This document shows positions 447-62,162 of a stretch of 64,000 nucleotides of DNA, piece by piece (within the stretch, counting starts at the first letter, position 1; each line of letters starts with the position of its first letter). Under the pieces are notes generated by a model. It had not been told where the DNA came from. It saw only the letters and a list, made by a program, of their open reading frames with translations, and did not search any database. Origin of the DNA: Onchidella celtica (taxonomy: Eukaryota > Mollusca > Gastropoda > Systellommatophora > Onchidiidae); contig OZ007576.1 of assembly GCA_963931925.1 (NCBI GenBank), positions 10,178,371 through 10,242,370 of the forward strand. Direction: 5' to 3'. The translations under genes were made by a program, and so were the position numbers.

Positions 447-548
447 GGTGTCAAAGCAGTTGTCCCAGCAATGCCATTCAGAATGCAAACTGTGGCTGTA
501 CTTGTGTTAATTCGGCATTGATATACGACGCTGTCAGCAACACTTGTG
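447..548 (+). CDS. Repeat exon, type A (left array), first intact copy
   Basis: 102 bp, acceptor cctcag, donor gtaagt. Six cysteines in place. It begins CQSSCPSNAIQNANC; position 11 is Ile instead of the usual Asn, and the C-terminal loop reads NSALIYDAVSNTC. The first base pair is GG rather than GA, which still gives Gly at the split codon. It is the leftmost intact exon; upstream there is only a dead 3' stump at 217-263. Confidence 0.78.
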
Positions 549-1366
549 GTAAGTCATTGTAACAAAGACTTAATATTCATATTGGATGTAGATTTACTGG
601 GTATTACCGAAAGTGCCGAAAGACATGCATGAGAAGTGATGAAGATATACAGTATTAAAGTATTGTAAATCCACATAAATGATATTCTATCGCCATCTAG
701 TTGTTCTCTTAATTATCTACCGCTCACATGGGCGCTAGGCTGACAGTATGGCGCTTCATGTAATGTTATATAGACATGTAACTCTAATAGCAATACAGTA
801 TCTTAGTTCATGCAAAGTAATTATTGTTCATCAATGAGTGAAATATAGAATGATACAAACCAAACAAAATTACTATATATAATTATGAGAGAAAAAGAAT
901 AACCGAAGAAAAGAGTGGCAACTGTTAAAAGACATTGAGTGAACTTGTATTTTAAATTAGCCTTCTCAGGTTTCTGGATCCTTGACTCAAGTAAATTATA
1001 CCAAAAAAAACACCTCATTTCAATAAGAATAAACTGGCTTACGTAGTAGTGATTACTAATTTCTGTCAGATTTGAGAAAGCACAAAACTGTGTCACATCA
1101 GAATGAAAGATTTAGAGGTGTTTCGTTTTTAGGAAAACAATTATGAAAAGTAAATAGTTAAAAAATTCCATATTTTTTTCTGATGCCAAATAAAAAACCC
1201 TCAGCTTTTCTACCTTACTGATATGATATTTGTTTTCTAGACCTACACCTGTTGTAGAGAAACATGTACTAAGAGGTTAAAAAAAGCATTAATTTTTGTT
1301 ACTCTTGATTTTATCTGAATATATTACTTTGTTACTTCATTATAAACGACATTTATCTTGATAATT

Positions 1367-1417
1367 GTCAGTGTTTAAATAGTGGCCAGATATACGACAC
1401 GGCGTCAAACCAGTGCA
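1367..1417 (+). pseudogene. 3' half of a B exon with intact donor
   Basis: TGT CAG TGT and the following codons read the B tail (NSGQIYDTASNQC), ending TGC A before gtaagt. The 5' half with the first cysteines is missing. It occupies the B position between the A exons at 447 and 2097. Confidence 0.55.
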
Positions 1418-1626
1418 GTAAGTAAAGGGCGATGCACAACATTTGTAATTATTTAGGAAGAAATACATGTATTATGACTGCTGTATTTGCTATTTTGTTT
1501 TATCGATCCGACCTTTGTACACCTTTCTTGAAGTACCCCATTGGTTAAGCAAGCATGACAACTTTTGTTAACATCATTATAGTGAAATCGCCACTATTAT
1601 GACACATAGTTAAACGTTTCTTAATC

Positions 1627-1627
<1 letters not shown>

Positions 1628-1662
<35 letters not shown>

Positions 1663-1686
1663 CCTCTCTCTCTCTCTCTCTCTCTG
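1628..1686. repeat. Microsatellite (GTCT)n followed by (TC)n
   Basis: About eight GTCT-like units run directly into about eleven TC units, inside the intron between the exons at 447 and 2097. It is not present in the other units, so it arose or expanded after they separated. Confidence 0.9.
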
Positions 1687-2096
1687 TGCGTGTTTTTTCA
1701 ACTACCATGTCTAGAATAGAGAAGAAGTTGAAAAAAAAGTGTTATTCTGAATGTTTGTTTGTTTTGTACATGATGAACTTGAAAGGAGAAAAATCTTTCT
1801 TATATTTCTTTCAGGATGAAATAATTAGAGAGATAACTTAATAATGTGTCCTGTTATCTCTGTATCTTTGTCAGCCCAACACACATATACAACTTAGCAA
1901 CTAACACATGCAGGAAATCAATTACTAAAGGACTAATGACTTATACTGCTAATAACTTTGCAGGACAGTTACTAATATTTGAAAGGTTACAATACCTGGG
2001 CCACATTTTTCATAATCTTTCCGAAACAGAACCCGATTCCAGTCTTTTATGTCTTCGTCTTCAACTGCTTGATTCTGAATCTTATTAATTCTTCAG

Positions 2097-2198
2097 GATG
2101 TGCAAGAAATTGTCCCAGGAATGCCAATCAGAATGCAAACTGTAGCTGTACTTGTGTTGATCCGGCACTCAGATACAACCCTGATTCTAACACCTGTG
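2097..2198 (+). CDS. Repeat exon, type A (left array)
   Basis: 102 bp, acceptor cttcag, donor gtaggt. It begins CARNCPRNANQNANC and then SCTC, with the loop DPALRYNPDSNTC. Arg8 replaces the common Ser, and Ser17 replaces Gly between cysteines 3 and 4. It is closest to the exon at 7030, sharing Arg8, ALRYNPDSNTC and the gtaggt donor. Those two are sister copies within the A group. Confidence 0.8.
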
Positions 2199-2913: not shown

Positions 2914-3015
2914 GATGTCCTCAGATCTGTCCCAGGAATGCCCAACGTGTTGGTGTGTGTGATTGTCAATGTGTGAACAGTAATCAGATATACGACAGTT
3001 CGTCAAATCAGTGCA
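2914..3015 (+). CDS. Repeat exon, type B
   Basis: 102 bp, acceptor cccacgcag, donor gtaagt. It begins CPQICPRNAQRVGVC and then DCQC, with the loop NSNQIYDSSSNQC. The cysteine spacing is the same as in type A, but the middle loop is RVGV instead of NQNA and the exon ends in A rather than G. A following exon starting GA therefore gives Arg, not Gly, at the junction. Ile5 and Arg8 are specific to this copy. Confidence 0.8.
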
Positions 3016-4244: not shown

Positions 4245-4346
4245 GATGTCGAAGAAATTGTCCCAGCAATGCCAATAAGAATGCAAACTGTGATTGTATT
4301 TGTGTTAATTCCGCATTTACATACGACCCTGTCCGTAATACCTGTG
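4245..4346 (+). CDS. Repeat exon, type A (left array)
   Basis: 102 bp, acceptor cgttcag, donor gtaagt. It begins CRRNCPSNANKNANC and then DCIC, with the loop NSAFTYDPVRNTC. Lys12 and Asp17 are unusual for type A. All six cysteines are kept. It sits between the dead A' exon at 3709 and the B exon at 5107. Confidence 0.8.
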
Positions 4347-5106: not shown

Positions 5107-5208
5107 GATGTCCTCAGAACTGTCCCAGCAATGCCCAACGTGTTGGTGTGTGTGATTGTCAATGTGTGAACAGTAATCAGATATACGACAGTCCGTCAAA
5201 CCAGTGCA
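5107..5208 (+). CDS. Repeat exon, type B
   Basis: 102 bp, acceptor catgcag, donor gtaagt. It begins CPQNCPSNAQRVGVC and then DCQC, with the loop NSNQIYDSPSNQC. Pro29 in the last loop is the only coding change from the later B copies. The spacing to the preceding A exon matches that in the 2,146-bp units. Confidence 0.8.
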
Positions 5209-6455: not shown

Positions 6456-6557
6456 GATGTCGAAGAAATTGTCCCAGCAATGCCAATCGGAATGCAAACT
6501 GTGGCTGTACTTGTTTTAATCCGGCATTTACATACGACCCTGCCCGTAATACCTGTG
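6456..6557 (+). CDS. Repeat exon, type A (left array)
   Basis: 102 bp, acceptor cgttcag, donor gtaagt. It begins CRRNCPSNANRNANC and then GCTC, followed by F and the loop NPAFTYDPARNTC. Arg12 and Phe21 are copy-specific. The next live exon is another type A at 7030, so the A-B alternation is broken here. The intervening B position was evidently lost, and only a stump of an A-like exon (6803-6847) lies between. Confidence 0.8.
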
Positions 6558-7029: not shown

Positions 7030-7131
7030 GATGTCAAAGAAATTGTCCCAGGAATGCCAATCAGAATGCAAACTGTGGCTGTACTTGTGTTGATTCGGCA
7101 CTCAGATACAACCCTGATTCTAACACCTGTG
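7030..7131 (+). CDS. Repeat exon, type A (left array)
   Basis: 102 bp, acceptor cttcag, donor gtaggt. It begins CQRNCPRNANQNANC and then GCTC, with the loop DSALRYNPDSNTC. It is the sister of the exon at 2097, and the intron sequence on both sides is also shared, so a whole block was duplicated rather than the exon alone. Confidence 0.8.
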
Positions 7132-7820: not shown

Positions 7821-7922
7821 AATGTTCTCAGAACTGTCCCAGCAATGCCCAACGTGTTGGTGTGTGTGATTGTCAATGTGTGAACAGTAATCAGATATAC
7901 GACAGTTCGTCAAACCAGTGCA
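7821..7922 (+). CDS. Repeat exon, type B, with AA start
   Basis: 102 bp, acceptor catggcag, donor gtaagt. The first two bases are AA instead of GA, so after a type A exon the split codon becomes Glu. It then reads CSQNCPSNAQRVGVC and DCQC, with the loop NSNQIYDSSSNQC. From base 7827 onward it is the start of the first of three near-identical 2,146-bp units. Confidence 0.78.
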
Positions 7923-8717: not shown

Positions 8718-9151
8718 GTAAGTTAATATAACAATCGATCATTGACTCATACGTTAGGTAACTTTACACAATGCGGAAGAATATTTAAAACGGCCATCAC
8801 TCAATAAGTAACGACTTGAATAGAATTTCGAAAAGTAATTTATGGGGAAATAGATTCGAACTAGACATTTAGCATCTAATTGTAGATAGAGATGAGGTTT
8901 CTTTCAGGACAAATGAATTAGAAAGGGTGTTGAAAATTGTCAATAATTTTTATAAACAAAATTATAAACTGTGTATATTGAATTGACATTGAAATGATTC
9001 TTGTTATCTTCATGCACAGAATGAACAAAGAAAGAAAGATAAAAAATACACAGGCCACATATTTCTATAACTCTCTGCAACTAGAATCCGACGCCAGTCT
9101 TTTATGAGTTCATCTTAAGTTGCTTACTACTAAATCTTATTAATCGTTCAG

Positions 9152-9253
9152 GATGTGGAAAAAGTTGTCCCAGCAATGCCAATCAGGATGCAAACTGTGG
9201 CTGTACTTGTGTTAATTCGGCATTGACATACAACCCTGCCCGTAATACCTGTG
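9152..9253 (+). CDS. Repeat exon, type A, in 2,146-bp unit 1
   Basis: 102 bp, acceptor cgttcag, donor gtaagt. It begins CGKSCPSNANQDANC and then GCTC, with the loop NSALTYNPARNTC. Asp13 replaces the usual Asn; the same change is in unit 2 but not in unit 3. Confidence 0.8.
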
Positions 9254-9613
9254 GTAAGTCATTGTAAGCAAAGACTTAATATTCTTATTGTATGTAGATT
9301 TACTGGGTATTACCGAACGTTCCATGGCCCCAAGTTAATATATAATGTGATAACACAAACTTCAAGGATTGTTATGTGAGAAAGTTCATTTCCCCGAGAA
9401 TTTGTTGTTGAAACTTGAAAAATACGAGATGGAACGTTGGAGAAGGAACATAATAATGTCTGAATGTCTCTGATCTCTGAATACAAATCGTGCTATTTTT
9501 TCTTTTTCAAAATCAGATGATTATATTTATGTGCAAAATGAATACAGAAACAAAAAAAGAGAAAACACGACTAACCAGTAAGGTAATAATAGATTATTTA
9601 GTTAATTGTTCAG

Positions 9614-9654
9614 GTGTCTCAACTAACCAAGTCTGGACTGCAAGTGTACTTATG
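9614..9654 (+). pseudogene. Decayed and shortened exon w (unit 1)
   Basis: Same relic as at 4704 but with a deletion of about 55 bp running into the following intron. Identical copies are at 11760-11800 and 13906-13946 in units 2 and 3. Confidence 0.4.
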
Positions 9655-9966
9655 AAGGTACTTAAAGCGCCAGCATTGAAATTATTTGTACCATGAAATC
9701 TTTTTGATGAAAATTTGTGTGGAAAACTTTCCCCCATATTGTGTATTCCTGCAACTAGCTTTGGCTTTTTTATATGAAAGAGGTAAGGCCTGAAGAAAAT
9801 CCCTTTCAGGAAAGAGATTAAGAAGTAGAAAAACTTTTATTGAAAAATCATTAATCCCAAAGAAGCATCGAGTGATTTATACACTATAAATATTGGTTTG
9901 AATAAAAAAAGTAACCTGACCATAGTGACATTCCTACCACTAATAATTATGATTTGCCCCACGCAG

Positions 9967-10068
9967 GATGTCCTCAGAACTGTCCCAGCAATGCCCAACG
10001 TGTTGGTGTGTGTGATTGTCAATGTGTGAACAGTAATCAGATATACGACAGTTCGTCAAACCAGTGCA
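9967..10068 (+). CDS. Repeat exon, type B, at junction of units 1 and 2
   Basis: 102 bp, acceptor cccacgcag, donor gtaagt. It begins CPQNCPSNAQRVGVC and then DCQC, with the loop NSNQIYDSSSNQC. This is the consensus B exon. The unit boundary, defined by the longest shared run, falls inside its first codons. Confidence 0.82.
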
Positions 10069-10761
10069 GTAAGTAATGGGCGATACAGAACAATTGTAAT
10101 TGATTTGTAAGAAATACATGCATTATAAATACTGTATCTGTTATTTTGTTTTATCGACACGAGCTCGGTGCAAGTTTCTCGGACTACCCCAATTGGTGCA
10201 TCATGTCAACTTCTGTTAAGATCATTATCTTATTTACCTAAAATCGTCATAATTATAACACCCTGTTAGACTTTTCTTGCTGTTTTTTTTTAATGTGCGT
10301 GTGTTTACTTGCCATGTTTAGAAGAGAGAAGAATTTTTTTTTTAAAAACTGTTCTACTGAATATTTGTTAGTTTTGTACACGGCCCTCGTCTTCACAGCC
10401 CTGAGCATCTGAACTCTATCACTTACAATAAGAGCAGTTATGAAGAATAACAGGAAATGATATCGAGAAAGTTGATGAACATGAACAGAGAAAAACATTT
10501 CTTATGAATTTGACGGTAAAAGGCGATCTGTAAGAAAAAAACCATTTGATCATGCACATTAAGAAAGTCTTAGGCCAAGCCGTTCCAACCTATCTATTTG
10601 GCACTTTAGGGTATAACAAAAACCTACATAAAAACCACCCTGTAACCTTCAACAGTGAGAATGGAAATATTTACTATGTAATTAAAGATCACTTTGTGGC
10701 CTTCTTCATGGTAAACTAAATTCACTACATAAAATACATAGTAATAATGTTAATTGCTCAG

Positions 10762-10863
10762 GATGTCAAAAAAGTTGTTCCAGTGAAGCCAATCAGAATG
10801 AAAATTGTGCTTGAATATGTATCAACCCAGTACACATATCCAACCAAACAATTAACACATGCA
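10762..10863 (+). pseudogene. Dead exon A', 2,146-bp unit 2
   Basis: Copy of the exon at 8616, with the TGA at Cys18 and intact splice sites. Confidence 0.7.
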
Positions 10864-11297
10864 GTAAGTTAATATAACAATCGATCATTGACTCATACGT
10901 TAGGTAACTTTACACAATGCGGAAGAATATTTAAAACGGCCATCACTCAATAAGTAACGACTTGAATAGAATTTCGAAAAGTAATTTATGGGGAAATAGA
11001 TTCGAACTAGACATTTAGCATCTAATTGTAGATAGAGATGAGGTTTCTTTCAGGACAAATGAATTAGAAAGGGTGTTGAAAATTGTCAATAATTTTTATA
11101 AACAAAATTATAAACTGTGTATATTGAATTGACATTGAAATGATTCTTGTTATCTTCATGCACAGAATGAACAAAGAAAGAAAGATAAAAAATACACAGG
11201 CCACATATTTCTATAACTCTCTGCAACTAGAATCCGACGCCAGTCTTTTATGAGTTCATCTTAAGTTGCTTACTACTAAATCTTATTAATCGTTCAG

Positions 11298-11399
11298 GAT
11301 GTGGAAAAAGTTGTCCCAGCAATGCCAATCAGGATGCAAACTGTGGCTGTACTTGTGTTAATTCGGCATTGACATACAACCCTGCCCGTAATACCTGTG
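11298..11399 (+). CDS. Repeat exon, type A, in 2,146-bp unit 2
   Basis: Identical at the protein level to the exon at 9152, including Asp13. Acceptor cgttcag, donor gtaagt. It lies exactly 2,146 bp downstream of its counterpart. Confidence 0.8.
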
Positions 11400-12112
11400 G
11401 TAAGTCATTGTAAGCAAAGACTTAATATTCTTATTGTATGTAGATTTACTGGGTATTACCGAACGTTCCATGGCCCCAAGTTAATATATAATGTGATAAC
11501 ACAAACTTCAAGGATTGTTATGTGAGAAAGTTCATTTCCCCGAGAATTTGTTGTTGAAACTTGAAAAATACGAGATGGAACGTTGGAGAAGGAACATAAT
11601 AATGTCTGAATGTCTCTGATCTCTGAATACAAATCGTGCTATTTTTTCTTTTTCAAAATCAGATGATTATATTTATGTGCAAAATGAATACAGAAACAAA
11701 AAAAGAGAAAACACGACTAACCAGTAAGGTAATAATAGATTATTTAGTTAATTGTTCAGGTGTCTCAACTAACCAAGTCTGGACTGCAAGTGTACTTATG
11801 AAGGTACTTAAAGCGCCAGCATTGAAATTATTTGTACCATGAAATCTTTTTGATGAAAATTTGTGTGGAAAACTTTCCCCCATATTGTGTATTCCTGCAA
11901 CTAGCTTTGGCTTTTTTATATGAAAGAGGTAAGGCCTGAAGAAAATCCCTTTCAGGAAAGAGATTAAGAAGTAGAAAAACTTTTATTGAAAAATCATTAA
12001 TCCCAAAGAAGCATCGAGTGATTTATACACTATAAATATTGGTTTGAATAAAAAAAGTAACCTGACCATAGTGACATTCCTACCACTAATAATTATGATT
12101 TGCCCCACGCAG

Positions 12113-12214
12113 GATGTCCTCAGAACTGTCCCAGCAATGCCCAACGTGTTGGTGTGTGTGATTGTCAATGTGTGAACAGTAATCAGATATACGACAGTTC
12201 GTCAAACCAGTGCA
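12113..12214 (+). CDS. Repeat exon, type B, at junction of units 2 and 3
   Basis: Identical in coding sequence to the consensus B exon at 9967, 2,146 bp further on. Acceptor cccacgcag, donor gtaagt. Confidence 0.82.
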
Positions 12215-12907
12215 GTAAGTAATGGGCGATACAGAACAATTGTAATTGATTTGTAAGAAATACATGCATTATAAATACTGTATCTGTTATTTTGTTTTAT
12301 CGACACGAGCTCGGTGCAAGTTTCTCGGACTACCCCAATTGGTGCATCATGTCAACTTCTGTTAAGATCATTATCTTATTTACCTAAAATCGTCATAATT
12401 ATAACACCCTGTTAGACTTTTCTTGCTGTTTTTTTTTAATGTGCGTGTGTTTACTTGCCATGTTTAGAAGAGAGAAGAATTTTTTTTTTAAAAACTGTTC
12501 TACTGAATATTTGTTAGTTTTGTACACGGCCCTCGTCTTCACAGCCCTGAGCATCTGAACTCTATCACTTACAATAAGAGCAGTTATGAAGAATAACAGG
12601 AAATGATATCGAGAAAGTTGATGAACATGAACAGAGAAAAACATTTCTTATGAATTTGACGGTAAAAGGCGATCTGTAAGAAAAAAACCATTTGATCATG
12701 CACATTAAGAAAGTCTTAGGCCAAGCCGTTCCAACCTATCTATTTGGCACTTTAGGGTATAACAAAAACCTACATAAAAACCACCCTGTAACCTTCAACA
12801 GTGAGAATGGAAATATTTACTATGTAATTAAAGATCACTTTGTGGCCTTCTTCATGGTAAACTAAATTCACTACATAAAATACATAGTAATAATGTTAAT
12901 TGCTCAG

Positions 12908-13009
12908 GATGTCAAAAAAGTTGTTCCAGTGAAGCCAATCAGAATGAAAATTGTGCTTGAATATGTATCAACCCAGTACACATATCCAACCAAACAATTA
13001 ACACATGCA
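12908..13009 (+). pseudogene. Dead exon A', 2,146-bp unit 3
   Basis: Third copy of the same pseudoexon, with TGA at Cys18 and intact splice sites. Confidence 0.7.
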
Positions 13010-13443
13010 GTAAGTTAATATAACAATCGATCATTGACTCATACGTTAGGTAACTTTACACAATGCGGAAGAATATTTAAAACGGCCATCACTCAATAAG
13101 TAACGACTTGAATAGAATTTCGAAAAGTAATTTATGGGGAAATAGATTCGAACTAGACATTTAGCATCTAATTGTAGATAGAGATGAGGTTTCTTTCAGG
13201 ACAAATGAATTAGAAAGGGTGTTGAAAATTGTCAATAATTTTTATAAACAAAATTATAAACTGTGTATATTGAATTGACATTGAAATGATTCTTGTTATC
13301 TTCATGCACAGAATGAACAAAGAAAGAAAGATAAAAAATACACAGGCCACATATTTCTATAACTCTCTGCAACTAGAATCCGACGCCAGTCTTTTATGAG
13401 TTCATCTTAAGTTGCTTACTACTAAATCTTATTAATCGTTCAG

Positions 13444-13545
13444 GATGTGGAAAAAGTTGTCCCAGCAATGCCAATCAGAATGCAAACTGTGGCTGTACTT
13501 GTGTTAATTCGGCATTGACATACAACCCTGCCCGTAATACCTGTG
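13444..13545 (+). CDS. Repeat exon, type A, in 2,146-bp unit 3
   Basis: As the exons at 9152 and 11298 but with Asn13 instead of Asp13, one of very few differences between the three units. Acceptor cgttcag, donor gtaagt. Confidence 0.8.
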
Positions 13546-17934: not shown

Positions 17935-18038
17935 GTGAGTTATTGTAGCAAAAGACCAATTACTCATACTGCAGGTAAACTTACAGATTGATTATTGTCA
18001 AATGTCTAAAGATGTCATCACTGGATGACATGTGTAGT

Positions 18039-47866: not shown

Positions 47867-49183
47867 GTAAGTCAGTATAAACAAGACCAATTAATCATAA
47901 TGTAGGTAAGTCTAAAGGTTATTGACAAATGTCTAAAGCTGCCATTATTGCATTTTGTGTGTAGTAGTAAGTATTGGACTAGTAAGTAGATATACTGTGG
48001 TGCGACAAATCTGTGCAGTAATTAATGAGCGACGGGTCATTTTTATGATTGATTAGGAAGAAATGCATAAATAATATACCTGTTATTTTATTTTTTTGTA
48101 CGCCGGCTCATTCTGTTTTTCTTTGGATGGCCCATAAGTGGATCAGTTCAACTTTTGTTAAGGGTATTATGTTTAAGTAAGATCGTCAGTATTGTGTCAG
48201 TTTTTACTGGATTTTTTTTTGTTCTGTTCTTCTTGTAATATAGAAAATCAGATTAGAAAAACAATTTTTAAAAATGTTATTCATAATGTTTTGCTAGGTT
48301 TCTACCTCTTCATGGTCTATATAGAACCTTTTACAACGTACAGAGTGCAATCAATCAATATTTATGAGAAAATATAATTGGAAAATAGACATTTAACGTC
48401 TAACTGTATATATTGATGAAGTTTCTTTAAGGACTAATGAATTAGACAAGAATCTGAAAATCTTATTCAAGATTAAGTACACAATTACTTTAAGTAACCC
48501 ATTAGTGAATCAGTTCAACTTTGGATAAAGTCATTATGTTTATCTAAAATATCGACAATAATGTATCATCCTGTCATTGCTTACTATTTTTTTGTTTTGT
48601 TATTACCATTTTGAGAAGAGAGAAGAAGTCAAAAAAATCAAAAATAGCGATCTACTGAATATTTATTACTTTTCTAAGTGCCCGTGGTCTTTACAGACCT
48701 GAAGATCTAAGCTCTTGCCACTTTTCCATTCCATCAAAGAAGTATGTATTGTTAAGCCAGGTGCCATCTCAATTAAATGAACGTTCTAAAAGCCGAGGGT
48801 CATCTGTAAGGTGGATATTTGTGCCAGTTCTGTTGCTGTGAGTGATTTAAAGTAAAGGCATTTATGAAGAATAAAAAGCAAAGCAATCCATCGAGCTAGA
48901 TGATGAACTTGAAAGGAATTAAATCTTTTTTATGAATATAACAGCAAAGGGGGATAAGACAAAAACCAATTGATTCTACACATTAAAAATGTCCCATTTA
49001 AGTCTTTTCATGTCTAAACGTTTGGCTTTTTAGTTTGTAAGTAAGCTGTATAAAAATCAAACTGAGATTTCCAGCAGTTCCAATGAAAATATTTATCACC
49101 TAGCCAGAGATCTTTAAGTAGCTCTTTTCGTGGTAAACTAAAGTCGCTGCATAAAATACAGAGTTATAATGCCCATTGTTCAG

Positions 49184-49285
49184 GATGTCCGAGAAGTTGT
49201 CCCAGCAATGCCAACCAGAATGCAAATTGTGGCTGTATTTGTCAGAATCCAGCACACACATATAACCAAGCAGCTAACACATGCG
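49184..49285 (+). CDS. Repeat exon, type P, cycle 5
   Basis: 102 bp, acceptor ttgttcag, donor gtgagt, Ala31 form. Confidence 0.83.
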
Positions 49286-50817
49286 GTGAGTTATTGTAGC
49301 AAAAGACCAATTACTCATATTGCAGGTAAACTTACGGATTGATTATTGTCAAATGTCTAAAGATATCATCAATGGATGACGTGTGTAGTTGTCGGTGTTT
49401 GAATAGTAAGTAGATTTACAACGATGCATCATCCTTGTGCAGTAAGTAATGAGTGACACATAATGTTTATGATTAATTAGGAAGAAATGCATGCATCATG
49501 TATTTTTTATTTTGGTTTTTCGACGCCAGCCTATTCTACTTTTCTTGGAATACTTAGTGAATCTGCTAAACGTTTTTTTTTCAGGATATTATGTTTAACT
49601 AAAATCCTTAGTTTTGAATATCCTGTGATATTTTTTTTGTCCGTTCTCTTTTTTCAGGCAGGAATTGCTAATTTGAGATTAGAAAAAAAAGTTTTAAAAA
49701 ATATTATTCATAAAGTTTTTTTTTTGTTTCTACCTATTCTAAATCTATATAGAACCTCGGATTTGAGCTCTTACTACTTTCCCGGGTCATTATAGAAGGA
49801 TCATTCTGTTGTTAGTCCAGATGCCATCTCCATTAAATAAAAGCTTTAGTTTCTTTGGAAGGTGGCTATTTATAATAGGTCTGTTGCTTTCCTAATCAGC
49901 AACTGACTGAGTTAGAGAAAGTGCATTTATGAAGATTAAGAGGAAGGGGTTTCGAACAAGCAGATATTTGAATATTAACCAGATATACGGCAATAAGTCA
50001 AACCACCGCAATTGATTAATGGGTGTTTCATAAACCTTCATGATTGATTAGAAAAATGCATGCAAAATAATTCTTATATTTATTATTAATTTGTCTTGTC
50101 CACTCCAATTGATCACGCGTCTCTTGAAGTAACCCATTAGTGAGTCAGTTCAACTTTGGTTAAGATTATTACGTTTATCTAAAATATCGACAACGTATCA
50201 TGGTGTCAGTAATTTCTTGCTCTTTTTTTTTTCCCTTGGATTTTGAGAACAGAGAAGAAGTTTTTAAAAAAAATGTTACACTGAATATTTATTAATTTTC
50301 TGCCTGGCCGTTGTCTTTACCGACCTGAGGATCTGAGCTCTCCCCACTTTTCCATTCCATCAAAGAAGTATCTGTTGTTAGGCCAAGTGCCATCTCAGTT
50401 AAATAAACGTTCTAAAATTCAAAGGTCCTCAGTATGGTGGCTAATTGTGCCAGTTCTGTTGCTGTACTAATGAACAGTTGAGTGACTCATAGTAAGGGCC
50501 TTTATGAAGAATAAAAGGAAAGTCTTTCGAGCTAGATGATGAACTTGAAAAGAATAAAATCTTTCTTATGAATATGGCAGTAAAAGGGGATAAGAGAAAA
50601 ACAAATTGATTATACACACTGAAAATGTTCCATTTGAGGCTGTTCCTTGCTTTCCGTTTGGCTTCTTAGGGTTAAGTAAGCTGCATGAAAGTCCAACCTG
50701 AGACCTCCAGCCCTTCTCATGAAAATATCTATTACCTAGCCAAAGATCTTTAAGTAGCTCTTTCCGTGAAACTAACGTCTCTGCATAAAATACATAGTTA
50801 TAATGTTCATTGTTCAG

Positions 50818-50919
50818 AATGTCGGAGAAGTTGTCCCAGCAATGCCAACCAGAATGCAAATTGTGGCTGCATTTGTCAGAACCCAGCATACACATATAAC
50901 CAAGCAACTAACAGATGCG
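50818..50919 (+). CDS. Repeat exon, type E1, cycle 6
   Basis: 102 bp, AA start, Tyr25 form, acceptor ttgttcag, donor gtaagt. The downstream intron shares the variant gtgaattag with cycle 4 (38.3 kb) and not with cycles 3, 5 or 7. Confidence 0.83.
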
Positions 50920-52004
50920 GTAAGTCAGTATAAACAAGACCAATTAATCATAATGTCGGTAAGTCTAAAGGTTATTGACAAATATCTGAAGCTGCCATTA
51001 TTGCATTTTGTGTGTAGTTGTAAGTATTGGAATAGTAAGTAGTTATATGGTGGTGCGTCAAATCTGTGCAGTAATTAATGAGCGACGGGTCATTTTTATG
51101 ATTGATTAGGAAGAAATGCATACATAATGTATCTGTTATTTTTTTTTTTTTGTACGCCAGCTCATTCTGTTTTTCTTTGAGTGGTCCATAAGTGAATTAG
51201 TTCAACTTTTGTTAAGGATATTGTGTTTAACTAAGATCGTCAGTATTGAGTCAGTTTTTACTTAATTTGTTGTTTGTTCTGTTGCTTTTGTAATATAGAA
51301 TTGCTAATTTGAGATTAGAAAAACAATTAAAAAAAATGTTATTCATAATGTTTTGCTAGGTTTCTACCTCTTCATGGTCTATATAGAACCTTTTTACAAC
51401 GTACAGAAGAATATTTAAAAGTGCAATCACTCAATATTTATGAGAAAATATAATGGGAAATAGACATTTAACGTATAATTGTAGATATAGATGATGTTTC
51501 TTTTAGGAGAAATGAATTAGAAAAGAATCTGAAAACCTTATTAAAGATAAAGTACACAATCACGTTAAGTAAGCCATTAGTGAATCAGTTCGAATTTGGT
51601 TAAAGTCATTATGTTTATCTAAAATATCGACAATAATGTATCATCCTGTCTCTTATTTTTTACCTTTTTTTGTCACTGCCATTTTGAGAAGAGAGAAGAA
51701 GTTTTAAAAAAAAAAAAAGCGAACTGCTGAATGTTTATTTGTTTTCTTCGTGTCCGCGGTCTTTACCGACGTGAGGACCTGAGCTATTGCCACTTTTCCA
51801 TTTCATCAGAGAAGTATGTATTGTAGGGCCAATCATTCATACTGTTGGTAAACTTAAAGGTTATTGACAAATACTTATTTTTGCCATCACTGGATGGTGT
51901 ATAGTTGTGAGTGTTATTACCTAGCCAAAGATCTTTAAGTAGCTCTTTTCGTGGTAAACTGAAGTCGCTGCATAAAATACTAAGTTATAATTTTCATTGT
52001 TCAG

Positions 52005-52106
52005 GATGTTGGAGAACTTGTCCCAGCAATGCCAACCAGAATGCAAATTGTGGCTGCATTTGTCAGAACCCAGCACACATATATAACCAAACAACTAACA
52101 CATGCG
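52005..52106 (+). CDS. Repeat exon, type T, cycle 6 (Trp variant, converted)
   Basis: 102 bp, acceptor ttgttcag, donor gtaagt. It carries Trp3, Gly17, Pro23, Ile26 and Thr30, as does the exon at 27086, and not the Asp17/Ala23 form of its neighbours. Flanking introns are of the cycle 4 type, so only a patch of about 475 bp was replaced. Confidence 0.83.
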
Positions 52107-53058
52107 GTAAGTCAGTGTAAAAGACAAATTATTCATACTGTTGATAACCTTAAAGGTTATTGACAAATACCTAAAGTTGGAATCACTGGGTGGTGTGTAT
52201 AGTTGTGAGTATTTGAATCCTAACTAGATATACAGCGGTGAGTCAAACCTGTGCAGTAAGTAATAAGCAACGGACAATTTTTATGATTGATTGGGAAGAA
52301 ATGAATGCATAATATATGTGTTAATTTGTTGTTTTTTTTCTACGCCAGCCTTGTTATATTTTACCTGGAGTACCGCATTTTTGAATCAGTTCAGTTTTTG
52401 TTAAGGATATTATGTCTGTCTAAGACTGTCAGTAATGTATGTCGTGAGAGACGTTTTTTTTTTTCTTCTGTTCTTTTTTCAGTCTTGGAGTGCTAATTTG
52501 AGATTAGAAAAGAAAAAAAAGACGTTAAAAATTAATAATTGTTCATAATGTTTATTAGGTTTCTACCTCTTCATGATCTGTATAGAACCTTTGATTTAAG
52601 CTTCTGACGCTTTCCTTTGCCATCAAACCGGCATCATTCTGTTGTCAGTCTAGATGCTATCTCCTCTAAATGGAAATTGTAGTTCCACTAGAAGGTGCTT
52701 GTTATGATAGGTCTGTTACTTTCATAATCAGCAAGTGACTCAGTTAGAGAAAGTGCATTTATGAAGAATAAGAGAATGAGGCATGCAACAAGGAGATGGA
52801 AGAGGCAAAAGCTTATTTATGAATGCATAATGTATGAGCTGTAAATTGTGAGAAGAGAAATTAATTAGATCGTGGCCATCAAGAATTTCCCATTTCGAGC
52901 CACTCCCATTTCACTGTTGCTCATTGACTTTGGAAAAAAACACGATGAGCATTTAAATTGGAAATATTTGTTATGTACCTCAAGATCTTGGAGGTGTTCT
53001 CTTGATGTTAAACTAAATTTGCTGCAAAGAATACACATTCACCTTGTTAATTATTCAG

Positions 53059-53157
53059 GATGTCCAAGTTGTCCCAGCAATGCCAATCAAAACACAAACT
53101 GTGGCTGTACTTGTATCAACCCAGCACAGACATACAACCCAGCCACTAACTTATGCG
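53059..53157 (+). CDS. Repeat exon, type S, cycle 6
   Basis: 99 bp, acceptor attattcag, donor gtaagt, CPSC start. Confidence 0.83.
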
Positions 53158-53284
53158 GTAAGTCAATGGAATAAGAGAATGAACATGTATTGTGTGACAT
53201 ATATATTATGAATTAGACTAAAGATCAAATGATGATGGTGATATTACTACTAAACTAGCAATGATTATGGCTTGGCCCTGACAG

Positions 53285-53385
53285 CCTGTCCTCAGAACTG
53301 TTCCAGCAATGGTCGACGTGCTGGTGTGTATGGTTGTCAGTATTTGATAGTAACCAGTTGTACGACAATGCGTCAAATCAGTGCA
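53285..53385 (+). pseudogene. Dead B exon after S exon, cycle 6
   Basis: Copy of the cycle 3 pseudoexon, 101 bp, frameshifted, donor lost. Confidence 0.7.
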
Positions 53386-54198
53386 ATTAATTAATGGGCG
53401 ATTTAAAACCTTGATGATTGATTATGAAAAGTGCAAGCAACATAATTATTGTATTTGTTATTTTCTCTTGTCCAATCCAACTGATCATGCCTCTCTTTGA
53501 GTAACCTATTAACGAATCAGTCCAACTTTGGTTAGGGTCATTATATTTATCTAAAATATCGACAGTAATGTATCATCCTGTCTGCCATTTGTTGTTTTTT
53601 TGTTTTGTTTTTTGTTTCTGCCATTTTGAAAAAAGAGAAGAAGTTTAAAAAAAGTGTTATACTTAATGATCATTAGTTTCCTACGTGTCCGTGGTCTTTA
53701 CCGACCTGAGGACCTGAGCTCTTGCCACTTTTCCATTCCATCAAAGAAATATCTATTGTTAGGACTGGTGCCATCTCAATTAAATGAACTTTAAAAAAGC
53801 CAGAGGTGCTCTGTAAGGTGGCTGTTTGTGCCAGTTCTGTTGCTGTACTAATGAATAGTTGAGTTATCAAGACTAAGTACATTTATGCGGAATGAAAGGC
53901 AAGGCTATCTAGCTAGTTGACGAACTTGAAAGGACTAAAATCGTCCTTATGAATATGGCGGTAAAGGGGGATAAGAGAAAAACAAGTTGATTATACACAC
54001 TGAAAATGTCCCATTTGAGGCTGTTCCTTGCTTTCAGTTTGGCTTCTTAGGGTTAAGTAAGCTGCATGAAAGTCCAACCTGAGACCTCCAGCCCTTCTCA
54101 TGAAAATATCTATTACCTAGCCAAAGATCTTTAAGTAGCTCTTTCCGTGAAACTAACGTCTCTGCATAAAATACATAGTTATAATGTTCATTGTTCAG

Positions 54199-54300
54199 AA
54201 TGTCGGAGAAGTTGTCCCAGCAATGCCAACCAGAATGCAAATTGTGGCTGCATTTGTCAGAACCCAGCACACACATATAACCAAGCAACTAACAGATGCG
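54199..54300 (+). CDS. Repeat exon, type E2, cycle 6
   Basis: 102 bp, AA start, His25 form, acceptor ttgttcag, donor gtaagt. Confidence 0.83.
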
Positions 54301-55617
54301 GTAAGTCAGTATAAACAAGACCAATTAATCATAATGTAGGTAAGTCTAAAGGTTATTGACAAATGTCTAAAGCTGCCATTATTGCATTTTGTGTGTAGTA
54401 GTAAGTATTGGACTAGTAAGTAGATATACTGTGGTGCGACAAATCTGTGCAGTAATTAATGAGCGACGGGTCATTTTTATGATTGATTAGGAAGAAATGC
54501 ATAAATAATATACCTGTTATTTTATTTTTTTGTACGCCGGCTCATTCTGTTTTTCTTTGGATGGCCCATAAGTGGATCAGTTCAACTTTTGTTAAGGGTA
54601 TTATGTTTAAGTAAGATCGTCAGTATTGTGTCAGTTTTTACTGGATTTTTTTTTGTTCTGTTCTTCTTGTAATATAGAAAATCAGATTAGAAAAACAATT
54701 TTTAAAAATGTTATTCATAATGTTTTGCTAGGTTTCTACCTCTTCATGGTCTATATAGAACCTTTTACAACGTACAGAGTGCAATCAATCAATATTTATG
54801 AGAAAATATAATTGGAAAATAGACATTTAACGTCTAACTGTATATATTGATGAAGTTTCTTTAAGGACTAATGAATTAGACAAGAATCTGAAAATCTTAT
54901 TCAAGATTAAGTACACAATTACTTTAAGTAACCCATTAGTGAATCAGTTCAACTTTGGATAAAGTCATTATGTTTATCTAAAATATCGACAATAATGTAT
55001 CATCCTGTCATTGCTTACTATTTTTTTGTTTTGTTATTACCATTTTGAGAAGAGAGAAGAAGTCAAAAAAATCAAAAATAGCGATCTACTGAATATTTAT
55101 TACTTTTCTAAGTGCCCGTGGTCTTTACAGACCTGAAGATCTAAGCTCTTGCCACTTTTCCATTCCATCAAAGAAGTATGTATTGTTAAGCCAGGTGCCA
55201 TCTCAATTAAATGAACGTTCTAAAAGCCGAGGGTCATCTGTAAGGTGGATATTTGTGCCAGTTCTGTTGCTGTGAGTGATTTAAAGTAAAGGCATTTATG
55301 AAGAATAAAAAGCAAAGCAATCCATCGAGCTAGATGATGAACTTGAAAGGAATTAAATCTTTTTTATGAATATAACAGCAAAGGGGGATAAGACAAAAAC
55401 CAATTGATTCTACACATTAAAAATGTCCCATTTAAGTCTTTTCATGTCTAAACGTTTGGCTTTTTAGTTTGTAAGTAAGCTGTATAAAAATCAAACTGAG
55501 ATTTCCAGCAGTTCCAATGAAAATATTTATCACCTAGCCAGAGATCTTTAAGTAGCTCTTTTCGTGGTAAACTAAAGTCGCTGCATAAAATACAGAGTTA
55601 TAATGCCCATTGTTCAG

Positions 55618-55719
55618 GATGTCCGAGAAGTTGTCCCAGCAATGCCAACCAGAATGCAAATTGTGGCTGTATTTGTCAGAATCCAGCACACACATATAAC
55701 CAAGCAGCTAACACATGCG
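55618..55719 (+). CDS. Repeat exon, type P, cycle 6
   Basis: 102 bp, acceptor ttgttcag, donor gtgagt, Ala31 form. Confidence 0.83.
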
Positions 55720-57251
55720 GTGAGTTATTGTAGCAAAAGACCAATTACTCATATTGCAGGTAAACTTACGGATTGATTATTGTCAAATGTCTAAAGATAT
55801 CATCAATGGATGACGTGTGTAGTTGTCGGTGTTTGAATAGTAAGTAGATTTACAACGATGCATCATCCTTGTGCAGTAAGTAATGAGTGACACATAATGT
55901 TTATGATTAATTAGGAAGAAATGCATGCATCATGTATTTTTTATTTTGGTTTTTCGACGCCAGCCTATTCTACTTTTCTTGGAATACTTAGTGAATCTGC
56001 TAAACGTTTTTTTTTCAGGATATTATGTTTAACTAAAATCCTTAGTTTTGAATATCCTGTGATATTTTTTTTGTCCGTTCTCTTTTTTCAGGCAGGAATT
56101 GCTAATTTGAGATTAGAAAAAAAAGTTTTAAAAAATATTATTCATAAAGTTTTTTTTTTGTTTCTACCTATTCTAAATCTATATAGAACCTCGGATTTGA
56201 GCTCTTACTACTTTCCCGGGTCATTATAGAAGGATCATTCTGTTGTTAGTCCAGATGCCATCTCCATTAAATAAAAGCTTTAGTTTCTTTGGAAGGTGGC
56301 TATTTATAATAGGTCTGTTGCTTTCCTAATCAGCAACTGACTGAGTTAGAGAAAGTGCATTTATGAAGATTAAGAGGAAGGGGTTTCGAACAAGCAGATA
56401 TTTGAATAGTAACCAGATATACGGCAATAAGTCAAACCACCGCAATTGATTAATGGGTGTTTCATAAACCTTCATGATTGATTAGAAAAATGCATGCAAA
56501 ATAATTCTTATATTTATTATTAATTTGTCTTGTCCACTCCAATTGATCACGCGTCTCTTGAAGTAACCCATTAGTGAGTCAGTTCAACTTTGGTTAAGAT
56601 TATTACGTTTATCTAAAATATCGACAACGTATCATGGTGTCAGTAATTTCTTGCTCTTTTTTTTTTCCCTTGGATTTTGAGAACAGAGAAGAAGTTTTTA
56701 AAAAAAATGTTACACTGAATATTTATTAATTTTCTGCCTGGCCGTTGTCTTTACCGACCTGAGGATCTGAGCTCTCCCCACTTTTCCATTCCATCAAAGA
56801 AGTATCTGTTGTTAGGCCAAGTGCCATCTCAGTTAAATAAACGTTCTAAAATTCAAAGGTCCTCAGTATGGTGGCTAATTGTGCCAGTTCTGTTGCTGTA
56901 CTAATGAACAGTTGAGTGACTCATAGTAAGGGCCTTTATGAAGAATAAAAGGAAAGTCTTTCGAGCTAGATGATGAACTTGAAAAGAATAAAATCTTTCT
57001 TATGAATATGGCAGTAAAAGGGGATAAGAGAAAAACAAATTGATTATACACACTGAAAATGTTCCATTTGAGGCTGTTCCTTGCTTTCCGTTTGGCTTCT
57101 TAGGGTTAAGTAAGCTGCATGAAAGTCCAACCTGAGACCTCCAGCCCTTCTCATGAAAATATCTATTACCTAGCCAAAGATCTTTAAGTAGCTCTTTCCG
57201 TGAAACTAACGTCTCTGCATAAAATACATAGTTATAATGTTCATTGTTCAG

Positions 57252-57353
57252 AATGTCGGAGAAGTTGTCCCAGCAATGCCAACCAGAATGCAAATTGTGG
57301 CTGCATTTGTCAGAACCCAGCATACACATATAACCAAGCAACTAACAGATGCG
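57252..57353 (+). CDS. Repeat exon, type E1, cycle 7
   Basis: 102 bp, AA start, Tyr25 form, acceptor ttgttcag, donor gtaagt; 12,865 bp after the cycle 5 copy. Confidence 0.83.
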
Positions 57354-58436
57354 GTAAGTCAGTATAAACAAGACCAATTAATCATAATGTCGGTAAGTCT
57401 AAAGGTTATTGACAAATATCTGAAGCTGCCATTATTGCATTTTGTGTGTAGTTGTAAGTATTGGAATAGTAAGTAGTTATATGGTGGTGCGTCAAATCTG
57501 TGCAGTAATTAATGAGCGACGGGTCATTTTTATGATTGATTAGGAAGAAATGCATACATAATGTATCTGTTATTTTTTTTTTTTTGTACGCCAGCTCATT
57601 CTGTTTTTCTTTGAGTGGTCCATAAGTGAATCAGTTCAACTTTTGTTAAGGATATTGTGTTTAACTAAGATCGTCAGTATTGAGTCAGTTTTTACTTAAT
57701 TTGTTGTTTGTTCTGTTGCTTTTGTAATATAGAATTGCTAATTTGAGATTAGAAAAACAATTAAAAAAAATGTTATTCATAATGTTTTGCTAGGTTTCTA
57801 CCTCTTCATGGTCTATATAGAACCTTTTACAACGTACAGAAGAATATTTAAAAGTGCAATCATTCAATATTTATGAGAAAATATAATGGGAAATAGACAT
57901 TTAACGTATAATTGTAGATATAGATGACGTTTCTTTTAGGAGAAATGAATTAGAAAAGAATCTGAAAACTTTATTAAAGATAAAGTACACAATCACGTTA
58001 AGTAAGCCATTAGTGAATCAGTTCGAATTTGGTTAAAGTCATTATGTTTATCTAAAATATCGACAATAATGTATCATCCTGTCTCTTATTTTTTACCTTT
58101 TTTTGTCACTGCCATTTTGAGAAGAGAGAAGAAGTTTTAAAAAAAAAAAAGCGAACTGCTGAACGCTTATTTGTTTTCTTCGTGTCCGCGGTCTTTACCG
58201 ACGTGAGGACCTGAGCTATTGCCACTTTTCCATTTCATCAGAGAAGTATGTATTGTAGGGCCAATCATTCATACTGTTGGTAAACTTAAAGGTTATTGAC
58301 AAATACTTAATATTGCCATCAATGGATGGTGTATAGTTGTGAGTGTTATTACCTAGCCAAAGATATTTAAGTAGCTCTTTTCGTGGTAAACTAAAGTCGC
58401 TGCATAAAATACAGAGTTATAATTTTCATTGTTCAG

Positions 58437-58538
58437 GATGTCGGAGAACTTGTCCCAGCAATGCCAACCAGAATGCAAATTGTGACTGCATTTGTCAGAA
58501 TGCAGCACACACATATAACCAAGCAACTAACACATGCG
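58437..58538 (+). CDS. Repeat exon, type T, cycle 7
   Basis: 102 bp, Asp17/Ala23 variant with the same flanking intron variants as the cycle 5 copy. Confidence 0.83.
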
Positions 58539-59489
58539 GTAAGTCAGTGTAACAAAAGACCAATTATTCATACTGTTGGTAAACTTAAAGGTTATTGACA
58601 AATACCTAAAATTGGAATCAATGGATGGTGTGTATAGTTGTGAGTGTTTGAATCCTAACTAGATATACAGCGGTGAGTCAAACCTGTGCAGTAAGTAATA
58701 AGCAACGGACAATTTTTATGATTGATTAGGAAGAAATGAATGCATAATGTATGTGTTAATTTGTTGTTTTTTTTCTACGCCAGCCTTGTTATATTTTACC
58801 TGGAGTACCGCATTTTTGAATCAGTTCAGTTTTTGTTAAGGATATTATGTCTGTCTAAGACTGTCAGTAATGTATGTCGTGAGAGACTTTTTTTTCTTCT
58901 GTTCTTTTTTCAGTCTTGGAGTGCTAATTTGAGATTAGAAAAGAAAAAAAAAACGTTAAAAATTGATAATTGTTCATAATGTTTATTAGGTTTCTACCTC
59001 TTCATGATCTGTATGGAACCTTTGATTTAAGCTTCTGACGCTTTCCTTTGCCATCAAACCGGCATCATTCTGTTGTCAGTCTAGATGCTATCTCCTCTAA
59101 ATGGAAATTGTAGTTCCACTAGAAGGTGCTTGTTATGATAGGTCTGTTACTTTCATAATCAGCAAGTGACTCAGTTAGAGAAAGTGCATTTATGAAGAAT
59201 AAGAGAAGGAGGCATGCAACAAGGAGATGAAAGAGGCAAAAGCTTATTTATGAATGCATAATGTATGAGCTGTAAATTGTGAGAAGAGAAATTAATTAGA
59301 TCGTGGCCATCAAGAATTTCCCATTTCGAGCCACTCCCATTTCACTGTTGCTCATTGACTTTGGAAAAAAACACAATGAGCATTTAAATTGGAAATATTT
59401 GTTATGTACCTCAAGATCTTGGAGGTGTTCTCTTGATGTTAAACTAAATTTGCTGCAAAGAATACACATTCACCTTGTTAATTATTCAG

Positions 59490-59588
59490 GATGTCCAAGT
59501 TGTCCCAGCAATGCCAATCAAAACACAAACTGTGGCTGTACTTGTATCAACCCAGCACAGACATACAACCCAGCCACTAACTTATGCG
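59490..59588 (+). CDS. Repeat exon, type S, cycle 7
   Basis: 99 bp, acceptor attattcag, donor gtaagt, CPSC start. Confidence 0.83.
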
Positions 59589-59715
59589 GTAAGTCAATGG
59601 AATAAGAGAATGAACATGTATTGTGTGACATATATATTATGAATTAGACTAAAGATCAAATGATGATGGTGATATTACTACTAAACTAGCAATGATTATG
59701 GCTTGGCCCTGACAG

Positions 59716-59816
59716 CCTGTCCTCAGAACTGTTCCAGCAATGGTCGACGTGCTGGTGTGTATGGTTGTCAGTATTTGATAGTAACCAGTTGTACGACAAT
59801 GCGTCAAATCAGTGCA
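59716..59816 (+). pseudogene. Dead B exon after S exon, cycle 7
   Basis: Copy of the cycle 3 pseudoexon, 101 bp, frameshifted, donor lost. Confidence 0.7.
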
Positions 59817-60629
59817 ATTAATTAATGGGCGATTTAAAACCTTGATGATTGATTATGAAAAGTGCAAGCAACATAATTATTGTATTTGTTATTTTCTCTT
59901 GTCCAATCCAACTGATCATGCCTCTCTTTGAGTAACCTATTAACGAATCAGTCCAACTTTGGTTAGGGTCATTATATTTATCTAAAATATCGACAGTAAT
60001 GTATCATCCTGTCTGCCATTTGTTGTTTTTTTGTTTTGTTTTTTGTTTCTGCCATTTTGAAAAAAGAGAAGAAGTTTAAAACAAGTGTTATACTTAATGA
60101 TCATTAGTTTCCTACGTGTCCGTGGTCTTTACCGACCTGAGGACCTGAGCTCTTGCCACTTTTCCATTCCATCAAAGAAATATCTATTGTTAGGACTGGT
60201 GCCATCTCAATTAAATGAACTTTAAAAAAGCCAGAGGTGCTCTGTAAGTTGGCTGTTTGTGCCAGTTCTGTTGCTGTACTAATGAATAGTTGAGTTATCA
60301 AGACTAAGTACATTTATGCGGAATGAAAGGCAAGGCTATCTAGCTAGTTGACGAACTTGAAAGGACTAAAATCGTCCTTATCAATATGGCGGTAAAAGGG
60401 GATAAGAGAAAAACAAGTTGATTATACACACTGAAAATGTCCCATTTGAGGCTGTTCCTTGCTTTCCGTTTGGCTTCTTAGGGTTAAGTAAGCTGCATGA
60501 AAGTCCAACCTGAGACCTCCAGCCCTTCTCATGAAAATATCTATTACCTAGCCAAAGATCTTTAAGTAGCTCTTTCCGTGAAACTAACGTCTCTGCATAA
60601 AATACATAGTTATAATGTTCATTGTTCAG

Positions 60630-60731
60630 AATGTCGGAGAAGTTGTCCCAGCAATGCCAACCAGAATGCAAATTGTGGCTGCATTTGTCAGAACCCAGCA
60701 TACACATATAACCAAGCAACTAGCAGATGCG
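60630..60731 (+). CDS. Repeat exon, type E2, cycle 7 (array-edge variant)
   Basis: 102 bp, AA start, acceptor ttgttcag, donor gtaagt. It has Tyr25 and Ser32 (loop ending NQATSRC), unlike the His25 E2 exons of cycles 3-6. The intron after it resembles the one after 29283, so the homogenised block ends at about this exon. Confidence 0.82.
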
Positions 60732-62060
60732 GTAAGTCAGTATAAACAAGACCAATTAATCATAATGTAGGTAGGTCTAAAGGTTATTGACAAATATCCA
60801 AAGCTGCCATTATTGCATTTTGTGTGTAGTTGTAAGTATTGGAATAGTAAGTAGATATACTGTGGTGCGTCAAATCTGTGCAGTAATTAATGAGCGACGG
60901 GTCATTTTTATGATTGATTAGGAAGAAATGCATAAATAATGTATCTGTTATTTTATTTTTTTGTACGCCGGCTCATTCTGTTTTTCATTGAATGGCCCAT
61001 AAGTGAATCCGTTCAACTTTTGTTAAGGGTATTATGTTTAAGTAAGATCGTCAGTATTGTGTCAGTTTTTACTGGATTTTTTTTTGTTCTGTTCTTCTTG
61101 TAATATAGAAAATCAGATTAGAAAAACAATTTTAAAAAATGTTATTCATAATGTTTTGCTAGGTTTCTACCTCTTCATGGTCTATATAGAACCTTTCACA
61201 ACGTACAGAATAATATTTAAAAGTGCAATCACTCAATATTTTTGAGAAAATATAATTGGAAATAGACATTTAACGTCCAACTGTAGATATTGATGACTTT
61301 TCTTTTAGTACAAATGAATTAGACAAGAATCTGAAAATCTTATTCAAGATTAAGTACACAATTACTTTAAGTAACCCATTAGTGAATCAGTTCAACTTTG
61401 GATAAAGTCATTATGTTTATCTAAAATATCGACAATAATGTATCATCCTGTCATTGCTTACTATTTTTTTTTTTTGTTATTACCATTTTGAGAAGAGAGA
61501 AGAAGTCAAAATAAAAAAAAATAGCGATCTACTGAATATTTATTACTTTTCTAAGTGCCCGTGGTCTTTACAGACCTGAAGATCTAAGCTCTTGCCACTT
61601 TTCCATTCCATCAAAGAAGTATGTATTGTTAAGCCAGGTGCCATCTCAATTAAATGAACGTTCTAAAAGCCGAGGGTCATCTGTAAGGTGGCTATTTGTG
61701 CCAGTTCTGTTGCTGTGAGTGATTTAAAGTAAAGGCATTTATGAAGAATAAAAAGCAAAGCAATCCATCGAGCTAGATGATGAACTTGAAAGGAATTAAA
61801 CCTTTTTTATGAATATAACAGCAAAGGGGGATAAGACAAAAACCAATTGATTCTACACATTAAAAATGTCCCATTTAAGTCTTTTCATGTCTAAACGTTT
61901 GGCTTTTTAGTTTGTAAGTAAGCTGTATAAAAATCAAACTGAGACTTCCAGCAGTTCCAATGAAAATATTTATCACCTAGCCAGAGATCTTTAAGTAGCT
62001 CTTTTCGTGGTAAACTAAAGTAGCTGCATAAAATACAGAGTTTTAATGCCCATTGTTCAG

Positions 62061-62162
62061 GATGTCCGAGAAGTTGTCCCAGCAATGCCAACCAGAATGC
62101 AAATTGTGGCTGTATTTGTCAGAATCCAGCACACACATATAACCAAGCAGCTAACACATGCG
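62061..62162 (+). CDS. Repeat exon, type P, last intact exon in window
   Basis: 102 bp, acceptor ttgttcag, donor gtgagt, Ala31 form. The surrounding intron is more diverged than in cycles 3-6. No intact exon follows before the window ends; the next E1 position was deleted at about 63,616. Confidence 0.82.

Follow-up and report, generated by a model that had tools for sequence, protein, structure and literature searches.

We have analysed a 64,000-nucleotide stretch of the genome of the gastropod Onchidella celtica (hereafter the window; C10:10178371-10242370, part of a 1.14-Gb genome in 43 contigs), which carries 50 copies of an exon encoding a 34-residue repeat with six cysteines. The genome gave 33 matches to the haemocyanin beta-sandwich family, a mark of molluscan haemocyanin, which agrees with a mollusc as its source. 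Judged from its sequence, the window is probably the central array of a giant gene for a secreted matrix protein with a Pif/BMSP-like layout, which would lead from VWA domains to a chitin-binding end through a spacer of cysteine repeats. What the DNA displays directly is the exon structure, the flanking domains, a tandem paralogue, recent duplication of blocks and the decay of some exons. The predicted product would comprise, in this order, a signal peptide, two VWA domains, several exons with the spacing CX(9-11)CXCXC, at least 62 of the 34-residue six-cysteine repeats, one EGF-like exon, two chitin-binding-type exons (one of them CBM_14) and two conserved exons of unassigned fold. By analogy with Pif/BMSP, whose layout combines VWA with CBM_14, we propose a matrix protein with the array as its spacer.

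All 50 in-frame repeat exons of the window, which span 447-548 to 62061-62162, lie on the plus strand and none on the minus strand. A script-based check of each exon found phase 1-1, a preceding AG and a following GT in every case, with a length of 102 bp in 43/50 and of 99 bp in 7/50, which bears out a preliminary description of this DNA that had counted 50 intact phase 1-1 exons of these two lengths. Joined, they give 5,079 bases, 1,692 complete codons, no stops and 300 cysteines, in agreement with the 1,693 residues and 300 cysteines counted there if the split end codon is included. The cysteine spacing proposed in the same description, C-x3-C-x9-C-x-C-x-C-x13-C, matches 43/50 exons and fails for the seven 99-bp exons (19, 24, 28, 33, 38, 43 and 48), which open with C-x2-C. 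Numbered along the plus strand, exons 1 to 10 occupy 447..548, 2097..2198, 2914..3015, 4245..4346, 5107..5208, 6456..6557, 7030..7131, 7821..7922, 9152..9253 and 9967..10068; exons 11 to 20 occupy 11298..11399, 12113..12214, 13444..13545, 14259..14360, 15602..15703, 17833..17934, 19476..19577, 20655..20756, 21691..21789 and 22802..22903; exons 21 to 30 occupy 24257..24358, 25902..26003, 27086..27187, 28141..28239, 29283..29384, 31513..31614, 32700..32801, 33757..33855, 34897..34998 and 36316..36417; exons 31 to 40 occupy 37950..38051, 39137..39238, 40194..40292, 41334..41435, 42753..42854, 44387..44488, 45572..45673, 46625..46723, 47765..47866 and 49184..49285; and exons 41 to 50 occupy 50818..50919, 52005..52106, 53059..53157, 54199..54300, 55618..55719, 57252..57353, 58437..58538, 59490..59588, 60630..60731 and 62061..62162, beyond which the gene continues. 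Exons 3, 5, 8, 10, 12 and 14 belong to an RVGVC type. There are 26 distinct sequences among the 50, ten alignment columns are invariant across all units (the six cysteines, P6, N8, A9 and Y26), and the introns between the repeat exons measure 472-2,129 bp. A stop-free, slightly looser form of the repeat pattern occurred 0 times in 20 mononucleotide shuffles. Between exons 1 and 2 there is a (TCTG)15 microsatellite (1627-1687).

The remainder of the gene was sought in 100 kb on each side of the window (a small part being masked), and the positions given here are in window coordinates. A strict pattern that requires both splice sites identifies at least 62 intact repeat exons in the gene. Eight of them precede the window (from -8311 on), 50 lie within it and 4 follow it, at 64313, 65360, 69659 and 70597. 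It extends over about 99 kb, from a start exon at -20410 to the last conserved exon found, which ends at +78802; the preliminary description was right that neither gene end lies in the window, and we found the start exon upstream and a continuation of the gene downstream. The start exon has a GTAAGT donor and encodes a hydrophobic leader (according to a hydropathy script, not a signal-peptide predictor). It is followed by VWA 1, in at least three exons with approximate boundaries (Pfam 6.4e-15, profile positions 1-117 of 174), and by VWA 2, in exons at -15026, -14430 and -13016 (Pfam 2.7e-11); both domains are over the Pfam cut-off with their exons joined by hand. In the PDB, VWA 2 is most closely matched by integrin alpha-M chains (3.5e-6); proximal thread matrix protein 1 gives 6e-5. 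Then come N-terminal cysteine exons near -12209 (its start being uncertain) and at -11867, -10112, -8899 and -7618, three of which (-11867, -10112 and -7618) contain CX(9-11)CXCXC. The wider motif CX(8-12)CXCXC occurs 81 times on the plus strand within the gene span and 3 times on both strands of the remainder of the 264 kb. Downstream of the window we found a short cysteine exon (66960), an EGF-like exon of phase 1-1 whose matches are under the Pfam cut-offs (73195), two chitin-binding-type exons that are phase 1-1 like the repeats (74079 and 74962), and two conserved late exons with no Pfam match (77825 and 78611-78802). One of the chitin-binding-type exons matches CBM_14 with an E-value of 7.9e-5 (23.1 v 22.1 bits cut-off), which places this domain downstream of VWA as in Pif/BMSP. 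The hydrophobic start exon, the two VWA domains and the CBM_14 exon support the suggestion, made in the preliminary description, of an extracellular protein of matrix type. CBM_14 is abundant genome-wide: all 150 scored of 296 candidates were over the cut-off, and the same search matched 2/14 prokaryote-type controls.

The repeat had been described as belonging to no recognised family, and this holds insofar as Pfam and NCBIfam scans of the unit gave no model over cut-off and a PDB comparison gave no relative. The CX9CXCXC core, however, is one residue off the CX10CXCXC motif of Balbiani ring 3 and VEGF-C (as given in parts of PMC5816233 and PMC10328876) and has CX(9-11)CXCXC exons beside it in the same gene. 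The sole Pfam family listed for the 50 units was Sha_B_N (44/50, best E 0.022, under the cut-off), and we rejected the Shavenoid B N-terminal domain (PF23328) as an identity: a 97-aa piece scored 23.5 v 24.4 bits, and the family was not listed for 443 aa. Kelch, EGF-type and FXa-inhibition identities were discarded as well, all their matches being under cut-off; the Kelch likeness arises from the tail of the unit. In NCBIfam a single match was obtained, for 1/50 units (E 0.042), which we take as chance. A match to EGF or EB, which the preliminary description had named as the result that would speak against it, was not found by Pfam among the 50 units. The structure predicted for one repeat from the 50-row alignment has two short strands (mean pLDDT 86.6, pTM 0.43), and since its best PDB match in a fold search had an E-value of 2.8 (none with E <= 0.001), no fold is assigned to it. 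Balbiani ring 3, suggested by the CXCXC core, was also tried as an identity and rejected, leaving a likeness of motif only: the CXCXC/BR3P model PF03128 gave no match for the 50 units and scored one N-terminal exon at 10.6 v 15 bits (a genome search with it matched 0/14 controls and was uninformative), the flanking domains are VWA and chitin-binding, and the spacing is CX9CXCXC in the array and CX9 or CX11 before CXCXC in the N-terminal exons. By analogy, the repeat may nevertheless work like the Balbiani-ring-3/VEGF-C kind of repeat, though the Pfam model does not recognise it. Silk-mucin CXCXC motifs, in the parts of the sources that mention them (PMC9745057, PMC9432349), are single motifs.

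A tandem paralogue of the gene starts at C10:9,827,430, reaches at least 10,059,709 and ends about 98 kb before the start exon of the window gene. Its start exon (C10:9,827,430) is 85% identical to that of the window gene, its VWA exon (C10:9,832,319) 91%, its CBM_14 exon (C10:10,053,364) 72% and a late exon (C10:10,059,518) 81%; the N-terminal cysteine exons are present in it, too. Over the longer stretches, the 5' and 3' parts of the two C10 genes have kept about 70-88% DNA identity, so that the pair looks like whole-gene duplicates. The paralogue's array comprises at least 229 repeat matches (the union of two genome searches and the loci read); the searches scored 150/461 and 150/462 candidates, their counts being lower bounds on matches, and splice sites were checked in the loci read. 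The 150 scored matches of the first search fall into the window gene (40), the paralogue (94) and smaller arrays on contigs C5 (9) and C6 (7). On C5, eight repeats have both splice sites and one more has no donor; the C6 array is known from genome search matches alone. At C10:9936371-9946370 the paralogue's array consists of a 1.6-kb three-exon unit in about 6 near-identical copies, with 18 intact exons in 10 kb. Leaving aside the repeats with 96-base cores, we compared the 99-base cores of 101 of the 111 intact repeats available and found the nearest relative within the same gene for 93/101 (50/54, 37/40 and 6/7 by group); therefore, the arrays expanded mostly after the genes had parted.

The recent growth of the window array is visible in duplicated blocks on the plus strand. 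A 2,146-bp block with two exons (9045..11190) is identical to the next one (11191..13336), and a 6.4-kb block with five exons is present in five copies (30553..36990, 36991..43427, 43428..49858, 49859..56292 and 56293..62740) that are 98.7-99.8% alike; older blocks differ by about 5-9%. These blocks agree with the earlier claim of one gene model whose array continues to expand. The identical blocks could in part be an assembly error, and copy number may have been inflated by an assembler adding near-identical blocks, as the complete identity of the two 2,146-bp blocks and the up to 99.84% identity of the 6.4-kb copies would permit. We consider this very unlikely, given the 10 to 84 sites at which pairs of the five 6.4-kb copies differ, the divergence between the older blocks, and the same duplication habit, with a unit of its own, in the paralogue. 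Another alternative is a repertoire of exons that are skipped or chosen, giving many isoforms which differ in length or repeat order. Since all 50 repeat exons are divisible by three and of phase 1-1, any of them could be skipped in frame; the duplication of one exon predicts the same symmetry equally well, and we regard such a repertoire, too, as quite improbable.

Besides the intact exons there are decayed ones. In all the DNA fetched we found 114 full-length in-frame matches, 109 of them with six cysteines and both splice sites; among the other five, one has six cysteines without a donor, and four have neither the full set of cysteines nor the full pair of splice sites. In terms of distinct peptides (77), both splice sites are present in 72/73 with six cysteines and in 0/4 without (p 4e-6), although two of these four derive from the same relic. 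Partial relic matches number 29 in the window (E < 0.1), and in some cases two of them are halves of a single relic; examples on the plus strand are 16887..17016, where the match breaks off near the end, 15078..15166, and 28369..28466, of which a similar relic exists in each of the five 6.4-kb blocks. Repeat exons thus appear to arise in whole blocks and to be lost one at a time. In three older block pairs, which overlap and hence are not independent, divergence is lower in exons than in introns (2.66 v 7.09%, 2.96 v 9.46% and 1.98 v 5.00%; Fisher p 2e-9, 4e-8 and 0.004), with no gap events in exons and 74, 41 and 21 in introns. Among the young blocks, 6.4-kb copy 1 differs from copies 2, 3, 4 and 5 by 0 v 0.17, 0 v 0.40, 1.18 v 0.44 and 0.39 v 1.11% in exons and introns, respectively.

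Several observations weigh against a functional matrix protein of this layout. In the domain searches, the VWA 2 exons scored singly fall under the Pfam cut-off, as does the first chitin-binding-type exon (E 1.2); in the joined C-terminus CBM_14 is just under cut-off (19.7 v 22.1 bits), and this locus is absent from the results of the whole-genome CBM_14 search, with 150/296 candidates scored. For the laminin-G part known from Pif/BMSP, Pfam gave no match in the joined C-terminus, the 3' end being incomplete, and no stop codon was located in the 3' flank examined; because the last conserved exon found (78611-78802) ends in a splice donor, at least one further exon, with the stop codon, is missing from the model. 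At +65.5 to +66 kb there are cysteine-rich frames without clean exon ends. As to selection, the 5' sub-array of the window shows no greater conservation of exons than of introns (divergence of 7.45 v 5.31% and 6.08 v 6.22%), and 6.4-kb copies 1 and 4 differ in the opposite direction, by 1.18% in exons v 0.44% in introns. Within four exon classes dN/dS is 1.00, 1.08, 0.84 and 0.25; between classes A and C it is 0.20, and for A-B and B-C it is saturated and not computable.

The 5' divergence, the relics interspersed among intact window exons and the loss of splice sites from some full-length repeats would all fit an array that is partly or wholly dead, in which the flanking domains work and many exons of the centre, copied recently as passengers, have ceased to be spliced or translated. 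Such decay would hardly leave 50 exons with frame, six cysteines and both splice sites, exons better conserved than introns in the older 3' blocks, and cysteine loss coinciding with splice-site loss, and we judge it highly improbable. The dN/dS values bear on a further alternative, a plasma or mucosal recognition protein whose repeats form a diverse rod that binds parasites or microbes, the variation in repeat number and sequence being the point. In three of the four exon classes amino-acid changes are about as fast as silent ones, and a 'balbiani ring protein 3' is listed, in part of PMC5433772, among relatively abundant snail plasma proteins from columns carrying Schistosoma larval proteins. 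That snail protein is compared here by its name, and a name of this sort can arise artificially from the spacing of cysteines, as a passage of a coral genome paper considers likely for its own 'balbiani ring 3-like' names (PMC6385260). A dN/dS near 1 from few changes does not demonstrate positive selection, and a chitin-binding C-terminus and a pair of VWA domains suit matrix proteins. Recognition is thus, in our opinion, unlikely; of the interpretation in the preliminary description, expansion and matrix type are supported, and recognition stays as a rival.

In the reading that we infer, the exons would be spliced into one mRNA, and the product would be secreted and have a matrix role. The VWA end would bind other matrix proteins and the CBM end chitin, and the repeats would be small beads locked by disulfide pairing, forming a spacer that is both long and tough and in which one chain may be cross-linked to another; in mosquito lectins the CXCXC motif makes promiscuous interchain disulfides, according to part of PMC6811590. 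As each repeat is one symmetric phase 1-1 exon, whole repeats could be gained or lost without a break of frame, and unequal exchange between near-identical blocks of intron plus exon may add or remove them in this way, which would explain the independent growth of the arrays in the window gene and in its tandem paralogue. More tentatively, the gene pair might encode chitin-anchored fibres with a working length that depends on how many beads they contain (at least 62 and at least 229) and that varies between individuals or populations by unequal exchange. If true, this would be a tandem-repeat polymorphism of whole exons and introns tuning a skeletal or cuticular material. If the spacer does consist of single-exon disulfide beads in their dozens to hundreds, the recent expansions in two adjacent genes would provide a natural series in which to study the effect of spacer length on a biological composite, and the array would be a clear case of protein growth exon by exon. 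That the repeat escapes Pfam and NCBIfam adds to its significance.

Among the neighbouring features, open frames at window -65.5 to -61.8 kb, in the interval that separates the paralogue from the window gene, resemble an esterase of the arylacetamide-deacetylase type, and frames of 888 and 308 codons at +93.2 to +96.6 kb resemble what we take to be a retrotransposon (zinc-knuckle, reverse-transcriptase-like). The region at +65.5-66 kb has a weak match, with one stop, to a CXCXC multi-repeat exon and is perhaps a decayed exon of that kind; 8/12 matches to such an exon (E 0.03-8, internal stops) lie at C2:45.26-45.46 Mb, perhaps another cysteine-repeat family.

Among known systems, the Pif/BMSP proteins, with which we compared the gene by domain layout as published, share with it a signal peptide, one or more VWA domains and then CBM_14, according to parts of PMC11291548. 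Proteins that combine VWA with chitin-binding domains are thought, in the same source, to help build the organic framework of the mollusc shell, and VWA-chitin proteins are reported from Lottia shells in a portion of PMC3374290. Between VWA and CBM the known proteins carry low-complexity sequence or Sushi repeats (many of the latter being inserted there in the PifCCP subfamily), as set out in sections of PMC11291548, or, in one abalone protein, TSP1 (part of PMC6003135). Unlike these, the present gene has an insert of more than 60 single-exon cysteine-repeat units and an EGF-like exon before CBM. A partial survey of open-licence PubMed Central literature yielded no report of the present six-cysteine repeat between VWA and CBM_14. 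The abalone (Haliotis) shell protein, idb_25730, is comparable in having VWA, another type of repeat, two chitin-binding type II domains and sequence repeats; as far as that description goes, it differs in having TSP1 where the present gene has the six-cysteine unit, and it includes a ConA-like part. For the repeat itself, the silk homology domain of VEGF-C offers a parallel, since its CX10CXCXC repeats retain the protein in the extracellular matrix; in the passages concerned (PMC5816233, PMC10328876) these repeats are few and stand behind a growth-factor domain, none of which appeared in the exons scanned here. Chironomus Balbiani ring 3, in portions of PMC4192438 and PMC5816233, is a salivary secretory protein with CXCXC repeats, encoded by a gene with 38 introns; it differs in being from an insect, in the 11-kb size of its gene and in the spacing CX10CXCXC, against CX9CXCXC plus two cysteines here. 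On those partial descriptions, the Chironomus gene comes closest as a precedent for cysteine repeats encoded by a gene with many introns.

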